Shown in pieces: positions 29,397 through 48,307 of a stretch of DNA of 64,000 nt. Under the pieces are notes generated by a model. It had not been told where the DNA came from. It worked only from the letters and a program-made list of their open reading frames with translations, and searched no databases. The first letter of the stretch is position 1. Every line of letters starts with the position of its first letter. This DNA is from Halarcobacter bivalviorum (GTDB lineage Bacteria > Campylobacterota > Campylobacteria > Campylobacterales > Arcobacteraceae), in the NCBI RefSeq assembly GCF_003346815.1, contig NZ_CP031217.1, forward strand, positions 1,984,001 through 2,048,000, read 5' to 3'. Position numbers and translations under genes: made by a program.

Positions 29397-29702
29397 TACT
29401 TCCCCTATTTTCTTCTCTACAGATTCAATTTTAGTTTTAAGTCTATTTTCTTTACCTTTTCTAATATCAAAAGTTAAAGTAGAATAGACTCTATTACAAC
29501 CTAACTCTTCAAGTTTTTCATAACATTTTTGTACAATATTTAAAGCTTCTGATATTTTTTCTGTTTCAATTATAGTTGCCATTGAAGTTAACTGATAAGA
29601 AAAACCTGAATCTCTAATTACTTTAATAACTTCTGCCACATATTCACTTTTACTCTCTGTCTGATCTGTGGGAAACATTGCCATATTTAACAAAACACTC
29701 AT
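29388..29702 (-). CDS. MTH1187-family thiamine-binding protein
   Basis: This 104-residue protein matches the MTH1187/YkoF (DUF77) family: it starts VLLNMAMFPTDQTESKSEYV and has VIRDSGFSYQLTSMATIIE and TLTFDIRKG. Family members bind thiamine or a related pyrimidine and form tetramers. Genomic context gives no pathway link. It is divergent from the first ankyrin gene. Confidence 0.85.
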   Translation of the reverse strand: MSVLLNMAMFPTDQTESKSEYVAEVIKVIRDSGFSYQLTSMATIIETEKISEALNIVQKCYEKLEELGCNRVYSTLTFDIRKGKENRLKTKIESVEKKIGEVSK

Positions 29703-29735
29703 TATTTTCCTTTTACATTAAATTTTTTATGCTTT

Positions 29736-29758
29736 TTTTAGCTATTGATTATATAATA
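29736..29758 (+). promoter_or_regulatory. Promoter of ankyrin gene 1
   Basis: TTTTAGCTATTGATTATATAAT with TATAAT at 29752-29757 precedes the ATG at 29786. Nearly the same sequence stands before the second ankyrin gene, so the duplication included the promoter. Confidence 0.6.
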
Positions 29759-29785
29759 TTTATTATCGATATAAGAGAAATGACG

Positions 29786-31486
29786 ATGCTTAAAAATATT
29801 TTTAACAGAAAACAACCTTCTGTAGAAGGATTTAAAAATGCCTTATTTAATAAAATATTTAATCCTGATGAAATAAACTTTCATTATAGTGAAAAAGTAA
29901 ATTTATATAAAACAACTGAAAAAAAAGAGACTTTATTACACCTTTGTGCAAAATTTGCTTACATTGAATCAATAAAATGGCTACTAAATAAAGGCTTAAG
30001 TCTTGAAGCTCAAACAGAAGATAAAGAGACTGTATTATTTTATGCAGTTAAATCAAATAACATTGCTACTGTAAAATTCTTAGTTGAACAAGGTGCAAAT
30101 GTAAATCATAAAAACTTTTATCATCGTACAGCCTTACAAGAAGCTATTCTTTCAGGAAGTAAAACCTATAAATACTTATTAGAGAAAACAACAGATCTTA
30201 ATAATAGTGATTTTTACGGAAATAGTATAATCTTCCACGCAGTTTCTAGTGGAGACGATGAACTTTTAGATAATGTTTTAAAAAATGAAAATTTAAATAT
30301 AAACTGTGTAAATAAAAATAATGATACTGTATTAAACTATGCTGTAAATAACTATTTGAAAGAAAAAGAGTCTCCTAAATCTCTTTTTTATTTCAAACTT
30401 ATAAAAAAATTACTAGATTTTAAAATAGATATAAATAACTTAAATCAAAAAAAGGAGAATATTCTTTTTCAAGCTATAAAAGAAGAAGATATTAAACTTA
30501 TTAATCTTTTTTTATCTCAAGAAATAGATATCAAACAAAAAAACTATTTAGGTTATACTGTTTTAGAAGAGGCTTGTTTAAAAGGGTATAGAAATATAGA
30601 AGTAATTAAAGTCTTACTAGAATTAGGAGCAGATGTTAATCAAAGAGATAATGAAGGTTCAACTTTAATTGAAAAACTAATTGATTTAATTCTTTATTAT
30701 GAAAATAAAAAAGAGATAAGTTTTTATTTAGTTGAAAAAAGTTCTGATGAAAACAACTATTTTGAACTTCTTAAATATCTTTTACAAAATACAAAAGTAG
30801 ATTTAAATAAATATACTTCAAAATCAAAACCTCTGTTTTTTGATACTATAATCTATTATAATTTTAAGCTTTTTAAACTTCTTCAAAAAAGTGGAATAGA
30901 TATTAATCAAAATGATTTAGAACATAATAATGTATTAAGCTATTTAATTGAAAATGCAGATACTTCAACTACACAAAAACAAAAGCTATATTTAAATACT
31001 CTTCAAAGCCTAATAAACTTAGGAGTAAATATAAACAATAAAGATAATCTAGGTTCAACAGTAATTCACAAAGCTATTTTAAATAGTTCAATTTATACAA
31101 TAAAAGTTTTACTAGATGCTAAACCAAATTATAAAAGTGTAGATAACAATGGAAGAACATTTATTCATAATATAGTGTGGAAAGACTGTACGAAAACTTT
31201 TAAACTAGTACACTCTTATGATAATAGTGTACTTAATATTGCTGACAAATATGGGATATTACCTATTAACTATGCAGTTTTTATGGGGAAATATGACTTA
31301 GTAATCAACATGATTGATGAATTTGCTCATGTAAATAATACAAATCAAATTAGTCCAAAAATGAAAGATTTTTTCAAAAAATTTCATAATAATTTAAATG
31401 AACTTACAAAGTATGCAAAAAACAATGTAGATGTTAAAAATTTAAGAATTTTAAGTGATAATATGAAAAAAGAGTTCTCTATTTGA
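29786..31486 (+). CDS. Ankyrin-repeat protein, tandem copy 1
   Basis: A 566-residue protein without signal peptide. I chose ATG 29786 because its product MLKNIFNRKQPSVEGFKN aligns with the start of the second copy; ATG 29780 is an alternative. At least ten ankyrin-type repeats are visible, for example KETLLHLCAKFAYIESIKWLL, VLFYAVKSNNIATVKFLVEQGANVNH and STVIHKAILNSSIYTIKVLL. A cytoplasmic protein-binding role is likely; no catalytic motif is seen. Compared with copy 2 it lacks about 70 residues in the middle. Confidence 0.88.
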   Translation: MLKNIFNRKQPSVEGFKNALFNKIFNPDEINFHYSEKVNLYKTTEKKETLLHLCAKFAYIESIKWLLNKGLSLEAQTEDKETVLFYAVKSNNIATVKFLVEQGANVNHKNFYHRTALQEAILSGSKTYKYLLEKTTDLNNSDFYGNSIIFHAVSSGDDELLDNVLKNENLNINCVNKNNDTVLNYAVNNYLKEKESPKSLFYFKLIKKLLDFKIDINNLNQKKENILFQAIKEEDIKLINLFLSQEIDIKQKNYLGYTVLEEACLKGYRNIEVIKVLLELGADVNQRDNEGSTLIEKLIDLILYYENKKEISFYLVEKSSDENNYFELLKYLLQNTKVDLNKYTSKSKPLFFDTIIYYNFKLFKLLQKSGIDINQNDLEHNNVLSYLIENADTSTTQKQKLYLNTLQSLINLGVNINNKDNLGSTVIHKAILNSSIYTIKVLLDAKPNYKSVDNNGRTFIHNIVWKDCTKTFKLVHSYDNSVLNIADKYGILPINYAVFMGKYDLVINMIDEFAHVNNTNQISPKMKDFFKKFHNNLNELTKYAKNNVDVKNLRILSDNMKKEFSI

Positions 31487-31534
31487 CCCTTAAAAGTCAC
31501 AATTATAACTTTTTGGTCTATTTTTTAATAATTA

Positions 31535-31556
31535 TTTTAGCTATTAGTTATATAAT
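31535..31556 (+). promoter_or_regulatory. Promoter of ankyrin gene 2
   Basis: TTTTAGCTATTAGTTATATAAT with TATAAT at 31551-31556 lies 34 bp before the ATG. It differs from the promoter of copy 1 by only two bases over 22. Confidence 0.6.
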
Positions 31557-31589
31557 TTAGCTATGTAAATATTAGAAAAGTAAAAAACA

Positions 31590-33509
31590 ATGCTAAAAAA
31601 AATTTTTAACAGAAAGCAGCCTTCAAAAGAAGGTTTCAAAAATGCTTTATTTAACAAAGTCTTTAACCCTGATGAACTTGAGTTTAATTATACTGATGAT
31701 ATTAACTTAAATGAACTTACCGAAAAAAAAGAAACTTTATTGCATTTATGTGCAAAATCTGCACTTTTAGAATCAATTAAATGGCTTATAAATAAAGGTT
31801 TAAGTCTAGAATCATTAACCTCAGATAAAGAGAGTGTTCTCTTTTATGCTGTAAAATCAAATAATACTTCTGTAGTAAAATTCTTAGTAGAAAAAGGTGC
31901 TAATGTTAATCACAAAAATTTTTATCACCGTACTGCTCTACAAGAAGCAATTATTTCAGGAAGTAAAACCTATAAATACTTATTAGAAAAAACTGATGAT
32001 ATAAGAAACAAAGATTTCTATGGGAACAATCTAGTATTTGATGCTGTATCAAATGGAAGTAGTGAGATTTTAGATGCAGTTTTAAAAAATGAAAAAATTG
32101 ATATTAACTGTGTAAATAAAAATAAAAATATAATCTTACATAAAGACCCAGCTTTTAATAACTATGAATTAGCAAGAAAACTCTTAGAACATGGTGCAAA
32201 CCCTACTTTAGGGGATAAAAATGGTAAAAACTTCCTTTTTTATGCGATTGAAAAAGGAATTGAAAATATAAAACTAGTAGAAAAAGCTATAGAATATGGT
32301 TGTGAAGTAAATAATAAAGATTTTCAAAATAAAACTGTATTAAATTATGTTGTTGATAATTATATAAAAGCAAAAAACGAATTGAATGCTATACAAGCAC
32401 TTTCTCATTTTAAATTAATTCAAAAACTTATCTCTTTTGATATAAACTTAAATAGTTTAAATAAAGAAGAAGAGACTGTGTTATTTCAAGCTATAAGAAG
32501 TGAAGATAAAGAGTTAATTGAGCTTTTTTTAAATACAAATAAATTCAATATAAATCAAAAAAATATTCAAGGGCAAACTGTTTTAACAGAGGCTTGTTAT
32601 AGAGGTTTTGGAAATATTGAGATTATAAAATCTTTAATTGAATTAGGAGCTGATGTTAATATTAGAGATAATCATGATTCAACTATTATAGAAAAGCTTA
32701 TTGAACTGATTTTACACTATAGAAATCAAAAAATAATAAGTTACTCTTTAATTGAAAAAAGTTCATATGATAACAATTATTATGACTTACTCGAATATTT
32801 ATTAAAAAATACAAAGGTTGATTTAAAAAAATATAATTCTAAAGCTAAACCTCTATTCTTTGATACAATAATTTATTATAACTTTGAAGTTTTTAAACTT
32901 CTTAAAAAATATGGAATAAATATAAATCAAAAAGATTTAAATCATCATAATATTGTTTTTTATCTAATAGAAAAAGCAGATACTTCAACTGCCCAAAAAC
33001 AAAAGCTTTATCTAAAAACTTTACAAAGTCTTATTAATTTAGGAGTGGATATAAATGAGAAAGATGATTTAGGATCAACAGTTATTCACAAAGCTATTTT
33101 AAATAAATGTATTTATACTTTAAAACTTTTACTTGAAGCCAAACCAAATTTAAAAAGTGTTGACAAAAAAGGTAGAACATTTATTCATAATGTGGTATGG
33201 AGAGATTGTACAAGAACTTTTAAATTAGTTCACTCTTATGATAATAGTATTGTAAATATTGCAGACAATTATGGAGTACTACCAATTAATTATGCTGTAT
33301 TTATGGGAAAATTTGATTTAGTTGTAACTATGATTGATGAATTTGCCCATGTAAATAATACAAATAAAATAGATCCAAAGATGATTGATTTCTTCAAAAA
33401 ATTTCATAATAATGTAAAAAACTTAATAACTTATGCAAAGAGTAAGGTTGATGAAAAAAATTTAAAACTACTAAGTGAAAACATGAAAAAGGAATTTTTA
33501 ATTCCTTAA
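31590..33509 (+). CDS. Ankyrin-repeat protein, tandem copy 2
   Basis: A 639-residue paralogue of the previous gene, very similar at both ends (MLKKIFNRKQPSKEGFKNALF at the start, MIDEFAHVNNTNKIDPKM near the end). It carries about two extra ankyrin repeats around residues 195-265 (ARKLLEHGANPTLGDKNGKN, EKAIEYGCEVNNKD). No signal peptide or membrane segment is seen. The upstream and downstream flanks show no mobile-element features. Function unknown beyond protein binding. Confidence 0.88.
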   Translation: MLKKIFNRKQPSKEGFKNALFNKVFNPDELEFNYTDDINLNELTEKKETLLHLCAKSALLESIKWLINKGLSLESLTSDKESVLFYAVKSNNTSVVKFLVEKGANVNHKNFYHRTALQEAIISGSKTYKYLLEKTDDIRNKDFYGNNLVFDAVSNGSSEILDAVLKNEKIDINCVNKNKNIILHKDPAFNNYELARKLLEHGANPTLGDKNGKNFLFYAIEKGIENIKLVEKAIEYGCEVNNKDFQNKTVLNYVVDNYIKAKNELNAIQALSHFKLIQKLISFDINLNSLNKEEETVLFQAIRSEDKELIELFLNTNKFNINQKNIQGQTVLTEACYRGFGNIEIIKSLIELGADVNIRDNHDSTIIEKLIELILHYRNQKIISYSLIEKSSYDNNYYDLLEYLLKNTKVDLKKYNSKAKPLFFDTIIYYNFEVFKLLKKYGININQKDLNHHNIVFYLIEKADTSTAQKQKLYLKTLQSLINLGVDINEKDDLGSTVIHKAILNKCIYTLKLLLEAKPNLKSVDKKGRTFIHNVVWRDCTRTFKLVHSYDNSIVNIADNYGVLPINYAVFMGKFDLVVTMIDEFAHVNNTNKIDPKMIDFFKKFHNNVKNLITYAKSKVDEKNLKLLSENMKKEFLIP

Positions 33510-43320: not shown

Positions 43321-43334
43321 TTGATTGGCATCAA
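43321..43334 (+). promoter_or_regulatory. Perfect FNR/CRP-type box
   Basis: TTGAT-TGGC-ATCAA matches the FNR consensus (TTGAT-N4-ATCAA) at every fixed position. Its centre is 56 bp before the ATG of the DUF2249 gene. If it acts at -41.5, transcription starts near 43369, leaving a short leader with AAAGGATAT as ribosome site. The purH promoter lies about 50 bp further away on the other strand. Confidence 0.8.
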
Positions 43335-43383
43335 CAAATTAAATTACTAAAGAGGTTAAACTTCGAAAAAAAAAGGATATAAA

Positions 43384-43722
43384 ATGGAAAAAATAGAAGT
43401 TCAAGGTGCTACAGTTGATTTTTTCAAATCAATAGAAGATGGCTTAACTACTTATCATTTTGATACAAGTAGATGTGGACCACCAGAACCAATGGTAAAT
43501 GCAATGGCAGGATTACAACTACTAGATGAAAATAGTCAATTAGTTATGATTAATCATAAATCACCAGCAGGTCTATTTCCAAAAGTAGAAGAGGAGTTTA
43601 ACTATTTTGTTGAAGAGTTAGATAATGGTTTTGCAAGAATTATTTTTAGAAAAAAAGTAGGTTCAATAAATACTACTGATTTTACTCAAAATAGTTGTTC
43701 TGGTTCAGGGTGTAATCACTAA
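43384..43722 (+). CDS. DUF2249-like protein with Cys-rich tail
   Basis: A 112-residue soluble protein. The core, with CGPPEPMVNAMAGLQLLDEN, LVMINHKSPAGLFPKVEEE and NGFARIIFRK, has the sulfur-carrier-like DUF2249 pattern (PxPM, then a strand with H/K-P). The tail NSCSGSGCNH adds a CxxxxC-type metal- or thiol-active end. It is the first gene of a four-gene operon behind a FNR box; its stop overlaps the next ATG by one base. DUF2249 proteins often occur with NO-related genes. Confidence 0.72.
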   Translation: MEKIEVQGATVDFFKSIEDGLTTYHFDTSRCGPPEPMVNAMAGLQLLDENSQLVMINHKSPAGLFPKVEEEFNYFVEELDNGFARIIFRKKVGSINTTDFTQNSCSGSGCNH

Positions 43723-44972
43723 TGAATATTTCAACTGCTTTTGCACCACCTTTTAAACTTGTTGCCCCATTTTTTATTATAGGAGTAAGTACTTTTGTAG
43801 TAACAATTTTATTGATGTTTGGCTTTGAGTTTGAGAATTTACACTACTTTAATAGTTCTACATTAGCTTGGGTTCATATTTTTCTATTAGCTTTTGTAAT
43901 GCTTATTATCTTAGGAGCTATGGCTCAACTAATTCCAGTAGTTTTAGAAGTGGGACATCTTGCAGTTGATTTATATTATGCTATTTACCCTTTAATGATT
44001 TTAGGGACATTATTAATGGCTTTTGGCTTTTATAATTTACCTATTTTACTTCCCTTTGGAGGAGTTACAGTTCTTATTGCTCTTTTTATATTTCTAATAG
44101 AGACTTTTTTAACAATCTTAAAAGTTAAAAAAATAAATTTCATTATAAGTACAATTATCATCTCTAATATATTTTTACTCTTAGGAGTAATTATAGGGAT
44201 TGCTTTAGCCTTAAATTACTCTGGAATTTTCTCTTTTGACTCTTTTAAACTTTTAAAAGCACATATTTTTTTAGTTTTCTTTGGATATGTTGGAACTACA
44301 GTTATGAGTATGAGTTTAATACTTCTTCCAATGTTTTGGTTAAGTCATAGTTTTACTTGGGTTTATGTAAAAACAGCTTTTATTCTTTTATGTTTTAGTA
44401 TTTGTTTTATGCTCTTTTTTACTTTTTCTTCAATTACTCTTGTTGAGGATATTGCATATACACTTTGTATAAGTTCATTGTTTTTATATTTTCTTCAAAT
44501 CTTTGTGATTTATAAAAAAAGAGTTCGTGTTGAAGTAGATATCTATTTTAAAAGTATGCTGTTTTCTTATTTTAGTCTATTTACTTCATTATCTCTGTTT
44601 TTCATCTATTTTTTCTATTCTAAAGATAACTTATTACTTTGTGCATCATGGCTTCTTTTTGTAGGTTTTATTGGTTTTTTAATAAGTGGTCATTTATATA
44701 AAATTGTACCTTTTTTAGTTTGGTATGAAAGGTTTTCAATATTTGTAGGTAAAAAAAGAGTACCAATGTTAAATGATTTAATTCCTAAAAAAAGCTCAAA
44801 TTTTCAATTTTTAAACTCTTCTATTGGAGTGATAATAGTAAGTCTCTCTTTTCTTTTGGAGAGTGATACTCTTTATAAAAGTGGCTTATGCTTTTTAACT
44901 CTTGGTGTAATATTTTTATTAAAAGATATTTTATATATGGCAAAAATAAAGGAGGAAACATATGTATTCTAA
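43722..44972 (+). CDS. Polytopic membrane protein, NnrS/oxidase-subunit-I-like
   Basis: A 416-residue protein with about 12 membrane segments. Histidines sit in conserved-looking places: WVHIFLLAFVMLIILGAMAQLIPVV, LEVGHLAVD, LKAHIFLVFFGYVG and GHLYKIVPFLVWYERF. This layout recalls NnrS and the haem-copper oxidase subunit I fold, but the full set of haem ligands is not evident. Haem or copper binding is possible. It overlaps the genes on both sides (1 and 11 bp), so it is made together with them. Confidence 0.65.
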   Translation: MNISTAFAPPFKLVAPFFIIGVSTFVVTILLMFGFEFENLHYFNSSTLAWVHIFLLAFVMLIILGAMAQLIPVVLEVGHLAVDLYYAIYPLMILGTLLMAFGFYNLPILLPFGGVTVLIALFIFLIETFLTILKVKKINFIISTIIISNIFLLLGVIIGIALALNYSGIFSFDSFKLLKAHIFLVFFGYVGTTVMSMSLILLPMFWLSHSFTWVYVKTAFILLCFSICFMLFFTFSSITLVEDIAYTLCISSLFLYFLQIFVIYKKRVRVEVDIYFKSMLFSYFSLFTSLSLFFIYFFYSKDNLLLCASWLLFVGFIGFLISGHLYKIVPFLVWYERFSIFVGKKRVPMLNDLIPKKSSNFQFLNSSIGVIIVSLSFLLESDTLYKSGLCFLTLGVIFLLKDILYMAKIKEETYVF

Positions 44973-45267
44973 AGAAGAAATTTTTAAAGCAGTTTCAACT
45001 GTAATTGATCCTGAAGTTGGTTTTAACCTTGTAGAGATGGGGCTTATTTATGATGCAAGTTGTAATGAGAAAATGGAAGTTGTTGTAACAATGACACTTA
45101 GTACTAAAGCTTGTCCTTTACATCAATTAATTGTACAGTGGGTGGAAGAAGCCGTGCTAAGAGAACTTCCTAAAGTTCAAATAGCTAAAGTAGATTTAGT
45201 GTGGGAGCCAGCTTGGAATATCTCAATGGCAAATGAAAATGTAAAACAACAATTAGGTAGTTTTTAA
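44962..45267 (+). CDS. MIP18/PaaD-like (DUF59) iron-sulfur assembly protein
   Basis: The 101-residue protein has the DUF59 signature: IDPEVGFNLVEMGLIYDA at residues 17-34, then VVVTMTLSTKACPLHQLI with the reactive Cys, and WEPAWNISMA near the end. Such proteins (SufT, PaaD, MIP18) help insert Fe-S clusters or mature metal enzymes. GGAGG precedes the start. It is the third gene of the FNR-box operon and suggests that a partner in the system holds a metal centre. Confidence 0.88.
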   Translation: MYSKEEIFKAVSTVIDPEVGFNLVEMGLIYDASCNEKMEVVVTMTLSTKACPLHQLIVQWVEEAVLRELPKVQIAKVDLVWEPAWNISMANENVKQQLGSF

Positions 45268-45689
45268 TGAGTTTTTTACTTGTAAAACTTATTCATATTT
45301 TTTCAGTATTTATTTATGCAGGTTTTCTTTTTACTGATAATCTTATATTAATGAGAATGCAAAAAAGTCTAAGTGAAGAAAAGTATAAAGAAGTAAGAAG
45401 TTATTTTGCAAAATTAACAAGAGCAATTGTTCCAAAAGCTTTAGTTGTAGCTGTAATATCTGGAATCTACTTATTTCATATTAGTTTTGGAAACCTTCCA
45501 CCAGACTATAATTTCTCTTCTTTTCAAATCCTATTATCATTAAAAGCAGTTTTAGGATTATGGCTTGGGTTAAGGGGAGTTTTACAAGTATTTTTTGGAA
45601 TTCAACCTTTTGTATTTAAAGGTCATAGACTTCCATTTATTTTAGTTATTATGATTATATTTTTATCGCAGATAATGTATAGTGTTTAA
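45267..45689 (+). CDS. Four-helix membrane protein, CopD/DUF2269-like
   Basis: A 140-residue protein with four membrane segments. The first helix contains LVKLIHIFSVFIYAGFLFTDNL, a His-bearing pattern seen in CopD-like and DUF2269 proteins, and the second pair ends with the GLRGVLQ and PFILVIMIIFL helices. A haem- or copper-binding role is possible but unproven. Its ATG overlaps the preceding stop by one base, making it the last gene of the operon; a hairpin follows. Confidence 0.65.
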   Translation: MSFLLVKLIHIFSVFIYAGFLFTDNLILMRMQKSLSEEKYKEVRSYFAKLTRAIVPKALVVAVISGIYLFHISFGNLPPDYNFSSFQILLSLKAVLGLWLGLRGVLQVFFGIQPFVFKGHRLPFILVIMIIFLSQIMYSV

Positions 45690-45720
45690 TAGATAAAGCT
45701 TAGATAGCTTCATCTATTAA
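45686..45720. terminator. Hairpin between convergent operons
   Basis: TTAATAGATAAAGCT and AGCTTCATCTATTAA pair over 15 bp with one mismatch and a 5-nt loop, across the stop codons of the CopD-like gene and the DUF302 gene. It probably terminates both transcripts. Confidence 0.6.
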
Positions 45721-46080
45721 TTTATATAGAGTCTCTTGTGTTGTTTTTGCTAATGGTAATACAGACTGCTCAATTGGTCTAGCTAAATCCTCTACTGGAT
45801 TCATAACTACACTTGTTTGACCATCTTTGCTATACACAGAGATTTTACAAGGCATAATTGCAGATAGATTTCTATTTGCAGTTAAAAACTCTTTTGCAAC
45901 ACCAGGGTTACATACATCAAGAATTTGACACTCATCATCAAACTCTACACCCTTTGAGTTAAGAGTCTCTTTTACATTATGAATATGTAAAACACCAAAC
46001 TTATAGTTTGATGCTTTTTCACAAATTGTATCTACAACCTCTTGAACACTTTTTGAAGAATCTTTAATATATTGTTGCAT
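45700..46080 (-). CDS. DUF302 family protein
   Basis: A 126-residue protein of the DUF302 fold: GVLHIHNVKETLNSKGVEF near residue 29, ILDVCNPGVAKEFL, and LSAIMPCKISVYSKDGQTSVVMNP. I start at ATG 46080, preceded by AAAGGTTTTAAA; a start at 46110 would overlap purL. The two Cys (CNP and PCK) are typical of the family, whose role is unknown. It is 13 bp after purL. Confidence 0.85.
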   Translation of the reverse strand: MQQYIKDSSKSVQEVVDTICEKASNYKFGVLHIHNVKETLNSKGVEFDDECQILDVCNPGVAKEFLTANRNLSAIMPCKISVYSKDGQTSVVMNPVEDLARPIEQSVLPLAKTTQETLYKLIDEAI

Positions 46081-46093
46081 TTTAAAACCTTTA

Positions 46094-48307
46094 TTATAAG
46101 TCTTGTTCAATTACTTCTTTAAATCTATTGAAATATACTTTTTTAGCAGCATCTAACTCAACATAAATATCATTGATAGCAATTCTTCCACCACCAACTA
46201 ATCCAAGCTCAGTAAAACTCATACCTTTTGTTGTACAAAGTTTTTCAAATGCAGCTTTGTTTTCAGCACTTACTTCAACAACTGCTCTACTTAAAGTTTC
46301 AGAGAATAAATCTTTTTCATCAGCTAATTTAATATTTGCTTCTAAACCTTTGTTTCCAACAACTGCCATTTTTGCTAATGCAATTGCTAAACCACCAACA
46401 TTAACATCTTTTGCAGCTTTTAATAAACCTTGATTATTTGCTTCAATTACAGTATTCCATAAGTTAAGCTCTTTTGCAAAATCAACTTCTGGGTGAGTTC
46501 CTGCAACTTTTCCATATAGTTTTTTAAGATATAAAGATGCACCAAACTCAGATTTAGTATCACCTAAAAGATATAGAGTATTTCCATCTTCTTGTAAAGC
46601 TGATGGTAAAACTTTATTTTGGTCATCATTTACACCAACCATTGCAATTGCAGGTGTTGGGAATACACCAATTCCATTAGTTTCATTGTATAAAGATACA
46701 TTTCCACCAATTACTGGAGTATTTAACTCTTTACAAGCAGATTTAATACCTTCACAAGCTTGAGCAAATTGCCACATTACTTCAGGGTTTTGTGGGTTAC
46801 CAAAGTTAAGACAATCTGTAATTGCTTTAGGAGTAGCTCCTGTCATAGCAACATTTCTTCCAGATTCCATAACAGCTGCTGCTGCTCCAAGTTCAGGGTT
46901 AATATAACATTGTCTTGTATTACAATCAGCAGACATAGCTAAAGCTTTTCCTGTCTCTTTAATTCTAATTACAGAACCATCATTTTTACCTGGTCCTTTT
47001 ACAGTATTTGTTTGTACCATTGAATCATATTGATTATAAACCCAAGATTTATCCACTACTTCCATATCAGAGAATAATTTATCAAATGCTTCTTGATTTG
47101 AGATATTTTTATCTAAAGAGATTTCTGTAATATCATTTAAATATGCTGGTTTTGCAACTGGTCTATCTAAAACAGGTGCTTGCTCAGAAACTGGTTGAAC
47201 TGGAACATCAGCAACTTTTTCACCATGCCAGAATAGTTCCATATTTCCAGTACTTGTTACTTCACCAATTACAGCAACATCTAATTCCCATTTTTCAAAA
47301 ATTTCAATAATTTTTGGCTCTGCACCTTTTTTAGCACAAATTAACATTCTCTCTTGAGATTCTGATAACATGAAATCATAAGGAGTCATACCCTCTTCTC
47401 TAGCTGGTACTTTATCTAAATGCATAATCATACCTGAACCAGATCTTCCTGCCATCTCAAAAGAAGAAGAAGTAAGTCCTGCTGCACCCATATCTTGGAT
47501 ACCAACAATTAAATCCTCTTTAAATAGTTCTAAACAAGCTTCCAATAATAGTTTTTCAGTAAATGGATCTCCAACTTGAACAGTTGGTCTTTTTGATTCA
47601 GAATCTTCATCAAATGAAGCAGATGACATTACAGCTCCACCAAGTCCATCTCTACCAGTTTTACTTCCTACATACATAACTGGATTTCCGATACCTTCAG
47701 CTCTTCCATAGAAAATTTCATCAGCTTTTGCAATACCTAAGTTAAATGCATTAACTAGGTTATTTCCTGCATAACACTCTTCAAAGTTAGTTTGTCCACC
47801 AATAGTTGGAACTCCCATACAGTTACCATATCCACCGATACCAGCAACAACACCTCTTAATAAATATCTGTGTTTTTTAGCAGTTTCACTATCACCTTCA
47901 ATTCCAGCAAATTGAATTAAGTTCATACTTGCAACAGGTCTAGCACCCATTGTAAATACATCTCTCATAATTCCACCAACACCTGTTGCTGCTCCTTGAT
48001 ATGGTTCAATAAAAGATGGGTGATTGTGAGATTCCATTTTGAATACTGCTGCATAACCATCACCAATATCAATTACACCAGCATTTTCACCTGGACCTTG
48101 AATAACCCATGGTGCTTCTGTAGGGAAACCTTTTAAATATTTTCTACTTGATTTATAAGAACAGTGTTCAGACCACATTGCAGAGAAAATTCCAATCTCT
48201 ACATAGTTTGGTTCTCTTCCTAAAATTTCTTTGATATTTTCGAATTCTTCAAGTGTTAAAGAGTGTGCAAGTGCTATCTCTTCAAGATTCATCTCTTCTT
48301 TTTGCAT
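46094..48307 (-). CDS. purL: Phosphoribosylformylglycinamidine synthase subunit PurL
   Basis: The 737-residue small-type PurL catalyses the ATP-dependent FGAR-to-FGAM step with PurQ and PurS. It shows [14 protein letters not shown] near residue 43, [25 protein letters not shown] near residue 90, [18 protein letters not shown] near residue 265 and [10 protein letters not shown] further on. Length excludes the large fused form. AAGGCGGAAG stands before the ATG; an ATG five codons later is an alternative start. Confidence 0.97.

Follow-up and report, generated by a model that had tools for sequence, protein, structure and literature searches.

What would a DUF2249-like protein, a twelve-helix membrane protein and a DUF59 protein be doing together behind a single operator of the Crp/Fnr superfamily? 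The question is raised by an operon in a 64,000-nucleotide stretch of DNA, the whole of which is referred to here as the window, and which belongs to a complete Arcobacteraceae-type genome of 2.68 Mb. The original prediction had described four overlapping genes (g1 to g4) behind a perfect FNR box, and had proposed that they form an undescribed redox or nitric oxide (NO) system. The features of the locus are collected in Table 1; transcription is predicted to start near position 43369. Genes g1 and g2 overlap by one base, as do g3 and g4, but the overlap of g2 and g3 is 11 bases and not one, and it is to be noted that such overlaps are no evidence of stoichiometry, fixed or otherwise, although they had been read in that way. 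Elsewhere in the window, a gene for a DUF302 protein is convergent with the operon (45700-46110), and two tandem, closely similar ankyrin-repeat-like proteins of 602 and 639 amino acids are encoded at 29678-33509.

Table 1. Features of the operon, in window coordinates, with the basis of each assignment
Feature	Position	Strand	Basis
Operator TTGAT-TGGC-ATCAA, Crp/Fnr superfamily, TTGATTGGCATCAA	43321..43334	+	Sequence; predicted centre -41.5
Predicted -10 hexamer TAAACT	43357..43362	+	22 bp past box; conserved spacing, TAnnnT
g1, DUF2249-like protein: TusA-like fold, flexible C-terminal tail with conserved Cys (C105)	43384..43722	+	PF10006, 25 bits
g2, 12-TM haem-copper-oxidase homology protein	43722..44972	+	AlphaFold2 pLDDT 91; VIA Z 33.9 to CcoN
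g3, MIP18/SufT-like DUF59 protein, conserved CPLH	44962..45267	+	PF01883, 49 bits; alignment
g4, small 4-TM protein	45267..45689	+	Weak DUF2269/UPF0093 similarity

The families of the first three genes do co-occur elsewhere. In 94 of 100 loci, of which 20 came from a sample of 200 genomes of the class and the other 80 from GTDB genomes scanned with a profile, g1, g2 and g3 were found adjacent and in this order, the remainder being mostly contig ends or broken genes; a single-sequence search of the genome contigs returned no match, whereas the profile search retrieved the 80 loci. Nearly all of the best 30 g2 loci in the 200 class genomes have g1 before and g3 after g2, and the same trio is present in Campylobacter- and Sulfurospirillum-type genomes, where g2 identity is only ~30-37%. 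As judged from these genomes, the trio is conserved in much of the phylum Campylobacterota. One genome (G044) has its g2 split into two ORFs by in-frame stop codons, with g1, g3 and the box intact (L018 / L070:10054-11286). The fourth gene is restricted to the genus of the window and a few other Arcobacteraceae, and on this comparison it is a genus-level add-on outside the conserved core, so that of the predicted four-gene operon it is the trio that stands. The description of g4 as a CopD-like four-helix protein had to be given up as well: the profile search gave no CopD match, and the matches to DUF2269 and to HemJ-type proteins (UPF0093) were weak and below cut-off. One congener has a gene for an HPP-family membrane protein (PF04982, 195 bits) between g3 and g4 (L264:3036-3623); some members of this family function in nitrite transport.

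The operator is likewise conserved in relatives. Of 96 loci, 78 have the pattern TTGA-N6-TCAA in the 180 nt before g1, where 0.027 would be expected, and the box is letter for letter identical in three of the four closest relatives in the genus. When 79 promoters were aligned on the box, a hexamer, TAtAAT, was seen to start exactly 22 nt after it, its first T, its A and its last T each being conserved at 99%; close relatives of the window also have TAAACT at the +22 position. A -10 element 22 bp after the box would place the centre of the box at -41.5, which is the position of a class II activator. Counts in the window genome by itself show no more than a roughly twofold enrichment of the pattern (19 sites vs 9 in a reversed control), and it is therefore the comparative evidence that carries the claim of a box. 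The same arrangement of box, 22-nt spacing and TAnnnT is also found in this genome upstream of napA and a divergent crp/fnr gene, nir-cluster genes, nrfH, the nnrS operon and a cytochrome c553 gene. Comparison between genomes shows that g1-g2-g3 are a conserved transcription unit, and that their promoter, of the class II Crp/Fnr type, is common to nap, nir-cluster, nrf and nnrS genes. A box with a -10 element at +22 also precedes a small gene, a 123-aa ORF at G000:C1:1869533 (L065), which may belong to the same regulon as the trio.

As to the regulator, the window genome encodes four small Crp/Fnr-type proteins of 201-220 aa with one or two cysteines each; the N-terminal 4Fe-4S cysteines of FNR are absent from all four, and thus none of them is an Fe-S FNR. 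According to a review, FNR orthologues are missing from the Campylobacterota (PMC6682613); for the Nss proteins, which respond to nitrate, NO or N2O, a consensus of TTGA-N6-TCAA has been published (PMC11539149). Considering these three points together, the box is most likely an Nss/Dnr-type site of a nitrate/NO regulon and not a site of the oxygen-sensing FNR. The box of the original prediction (TTGAT-N4-ATCAA) is therefore retained, with its centre at -41.5, but its control by FNR is not, and the idea of low-oxygen control gives way to the nap, nir, nrf and nnrS genes that are found behind the same promoter. The wider proposal of an undescribed system linked to redox or NO has fared better, since trio and box co-occur elsewhere and share their promoter with these genes.

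A Crp/Fnr gene is found near the trio in 30 of the 100 loci, napA in 18 and a gene for a DUF1858-DUF2249 (DrpB-like) protein in 12. By analogy, the trio could be a sensor that signals nitrate, nitrite or NO to a Crp/Fnr regulator, as proposed for DrpA/DrpB of Thermus; the resemblance of g1 to DUF2249 proteins such as these (PMC6282519), the adjoining Crp/Fnr genes and the DrpB-like neighbours would all fit such a role. However, an adjoining regulator is missing from most loci, it is hard to see where the DUF59 protein would fit into a sensor, and no DUF1858 protein is encoded in the window operon; we consider a sensor very unlikely. An FmdE-like protein (PF02663) is also encoded beside the trio in 22 of the 100 loci, often on the opposite strand (L077, L081, L085, L087, L178).

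The window copy of the membrane protein g2 has no match in Pfam or NCBIfam, but its AlphaFold2 model, made with 27 homologues, has a pLDDT of 91 and 12 long helices, and its best structural matches by VIA were CcoN (8smr_E, Z 33.9 over 385 residues, rmsd 3.1) and NorB (Z 32.7), at a sequence identity of ~10-14%. In addition, PF00115 matched 12 of the 27 homologues, with a best value of 3.4e-7. It was indeed found that g2 has the 12-TM, three-fold pseudo-symmetric fold of subunit I of the haem-copper oxidase superfamily; of the two resemblances first suggested for this twelve-helix protein, that to oxidase subunit I is upheld, while NnrS was rejected, since there was no PF05940 match and the hhalign probability against the NnrS of the window genome was 1.2. 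Three histidines, H52 (TM2), H181 (TM6) and H324 (TM10), are invariant in 109 homologues, and H209 is nearly so; Q69, K327 and a PFLxW motif are also conserved. The hmmsearch alignment places H52 on H347 of CcoN and H181 on H60 (the CcoN ligand numbering being counted from this alignment), which we take to be the two ligands of the low-spin haem b in cbb3 oxidase.

The alignment also placed the first four-helix unit of g2 on TM9-12 of CcoN and the second on TM1-4, which was the basis for considering a circular permutation. This was ruled out: each of the three units matches TM9-12 of CcoN best, so that a pseudo-three-fold repeat accounts for the permuted alignment. The unit profiles matched one another (units 1 and 2, E 1.2e-5; units 2 and 3, E 6.4e-5; units 1 and 3, weakly). 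H52 and H181 occupy equivalent positions in units 1 and 2, and unit 3 has no histidine there; H324 was ruled out as a third haem ligand, as the alignment puts it ~13 residues further along its helix than the ligand. Most likely, by alignment and model, one bis-His haem would sit between units 1 and 2, in a pore that is empty in oxidases. Catalytic haem-copper oxidases and NO reductases have six histidine ligands, including those of the high-spin haem and CuB/FeB; in the alignments, no counterpart was found of H345 of CcoN (high-spin haem) or of the CuB/FeB pair of TM7, H269-H270, and g2 most likely has no canonical O2- or NO-reducing site. Alignment and model together argue strongly for a membrane protein with one haem (bis-His, b-type) and the haem-copper-oxidase fold, and without a binuclear NO- or O2-reducing centre; g2 is probably not an oxidase or NO reductase.

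It may still be asked whether g2 is itself the working enzyme, i.e., a quinol-linked protein for NO or nitrite detoxification or for electron transfer (a low-spin haem shuttle), which g1 and g3 would build or feed. Its oxidase/NOR fold, the invariance of the two haem-type histidines in the 109 homologues and its co-regulation with nap, nir and nrf are consistent with such a redox role; nonetheless, the ligands of CuB/FeB and of the high-spin haem are missing and no cytochrome partner is encoded alongside g2, and we consider this role unlikely.

Related modules were also encountered. In a second g2-like family, H52 and H181 are kept, and position 324 is Met (once Leu); its module, paralogous to the trio, consists of a hemerythrin, a short DUF2249 protein and the HCO-like protein (L179, L180, L182, L185-L188), and in several loci a box and a Crp/Fnr gene lie close by. 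At one of these (L185), the module adjoins an Rrf2-type regulator, a 746-aa qNOR and a globin. A third HCO-like subfamily (410 aa) stands alone, with neither g1 nor g3 (L183, L184), and in L184 its gene lies upstream of thioredoxin and thioredoxin reductase-like genes.

The first gene product, g1, scores 25.0 bits against PF10006 in its window copy, which is below the cut-off of 29.5; the same profile matches 19 of 40 homologues at E 0.01. The protein is DUF2249-like, as predicted, and has the cysteine-bearing tail (CSGSGCNH). The AlphaFold2 model (pLDDT 84) gave no significant match by Foldseek alone, whereas by VIA the top four matches were TusA/SirA proteins with Z of 6.5-8.4, among them TsuB (Z 8.4), SirA-like 3hz7 (Z 7.6) and TusA (Z 6.9), placing g1 in the TusA fold. 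Sulfur-carrier chemistry, as had been suggested, does not follow from this fold: in the alignment the catalytic CPxP cysteine of TusA is absent from g1, which has PPEP instead, and C31 is not conserved. A cysteine near the C-terminal end is, however, conserved in ~90% of the aligned copies. The third product, g3, was correctly recognized as MIP18/PaaD-like: it scores 49 bits against PF01883 (cut-off 23.5), CP is conserved in all aligned copies, and a conserved histidine follows it, giving CPLH in most copies. The window genome encodes two further DUF59 proteins, one at a housekeeping sufS-sufE-DUF59 locus and the other Mrp-like, which makes g3 a dedicated copy.

The company that the trio keeps among N-oxide enzymes was then of interest. 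In the class sample of 200 genomes, a trio-type g2 is present in 69, and the trio is found in 47 of 51 genomes with NosZ, 24 of 26 with NirS and 23 of 25 with cNOR, all of these being raw counts in which kinship is ignored. NapA is near-universal in the sample, many NapA genomes having no trio, and its co-occurrence was therefore dropped as a signal. NirS, NOR and NosZ are all missing from about a quarter of the 69 genomes with the trio; conversely, two Arcobacteraceae (G008, G187) have NirS and NOR but no trio. The trio is thus neither dedicated to NirS/NOR nor required for them and, by gene content, is not essential for N-oxide respiration. The window genome itself has norCB, two cd1-type genes, haem d1 genes and a clade II nosZ (G000:C1:400190-409400 and 1856567), as well as nrfHA, and its host looks like a complete denitrifier.

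These distributions bear on the suggestion that the operon matures a metal enzyme, the idea being that the trio inserts the metal or Fe-S cluster of one of the N-oxide reductases (Nap, Nos, Nir or Nor, for example). Such a role would agree with the DUF59 family of g3, the strong co-occurrence with NosZ, NirS and NOR, the trio adjoining nap in several genomes, and the drpAB double mutants of Thermus, in which NarG is made but has little activity (PMC6282519). On the other hand, there are trio genomes that lack NirS, NOR or NosZ, and each of these enzymes is also found in genomes that lack the trio, while Nap is near-universal and the trio is not. Dedicated maturation of NirS or cNOR was therefore rejected as the general role, the service of any one enzyme being unlikely, and insertion into N-oxide reductases in the broader sense is decidedly unlikely. 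Since the drpAB mutants show altered regulation together with low nitrate reductase activity (PMC6282519), maturation and sensing are both kept as unlikely readings.

What best accounts for these findings, in our tentative view and with a likelihood that falls only slightly short of probable, is an N-oxide-regulated accessory module that protects or repairs iron and Fe-S enzymes during N-oxide respiration. In such a module, the haem of g2 would bind NO or take electrons from the quinone pool; g3, being of the SufT/MIP18 type, would hand over or rebuild Fe-S clusters; and g1, with its TusA fold and flexible Cys tail, would act as an adaptor between the two. The trio would thereby guard or repair iron and Fe-S enzymes while nitrate respiration yields nitrite and NO. 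Iron centres are repaired by the hemerythrin-type YtfE/RIC, and iron pools are protected from NO by NnrS. Considering such hemerythrin-type repair and NnrS protection, the DUF59 partner and the N-oxide regulation, protection or repair is the most economical reading. A more specific form of it, which we put forward as possible though doubtful, is an undescribed NO-defence or repair system in much of the Campylobacterota, in which an oxidase-fold haem protein, catalytically 'dead', would work with a dedicated factor for Fe-S assembly and with an adaptor of the TusA fold; the haem would lie between units, in the pore that true oxidases leave empty.

The operon is a well-defined target of three genes with a predictable inducer, and with it the role of oxidase-fold proteins without an active site in denitrifiers becomes testable. 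It also bears on the tolerance of free-living Campylobacterota, including Sulfurimonas of vents and sulphidic sediments, toward the NO that they make themselves.

Among known proteins, the closest to g2 are the HCOH proteins, which Pei and co-workers reportedly described in 2014 (Protein Sci 23:1220, as cited in PMC11218638) as having 12 TM, three homologous four-helix units and two haem-type histidines, and which are said to resemble TM9-12 of the oxidases most and to be linked in genomes to DUF2249 and denitrification. By this definition, g2 is a three-unit HCOH protein in its 12 TM, its homologous units, its two conserved haem-type histidines, its similarity to TM9-12 and its link to DUF2249 and denitrification; it differs in that neither Pfam nor NCBIfam has a name for the window copy, and in its setting, a fixed operon of the DUF2249-HCOH-DUF59 type whose Crp/Fnr promoter is at -41.5. 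Thus, the HCOH class and its link to DUF2249 were already known, but this operon appears to be unstudied, and an open-access full-text search for DUF2249 found no paper that describes it. With CcoN and NorB, g2 shares the fold over its whole length (Z 33.9 and 32.7), but its two kept histidines belong to units 1 and 2 instead of 1 and 3. NnrS, for which an oxidase-related fold has been proposed, is similarly a 12-TM, N-oxide-regulated protein, and nnrS lies behind the same promoter in the window genome; g2, however, has neither a Pfam NnrS match nor a significant profile match to it. Like DrpA/DrpB of Thermus (PMC6282519) and the DUF2249 proteins of haloarchaea (PMC11218638), g1 matches DUF2249, in its case below cut-off, and goes with nitrate respiration or denitrification, in which those proteins are expressed, but it has HCOH and DUF59 partners, and none has been reported for Drp (PMC6282519). 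Lastly, g3 resembles SufT, MIP18 and PaaD in its DUF59 family match and its DPE, GLIY, CP and PxW motifs, and is set apart from them by its score (81.5 vs 143.4 bits, below the equivalog cut-offs) and by being a dedicated second copy with CPLH.
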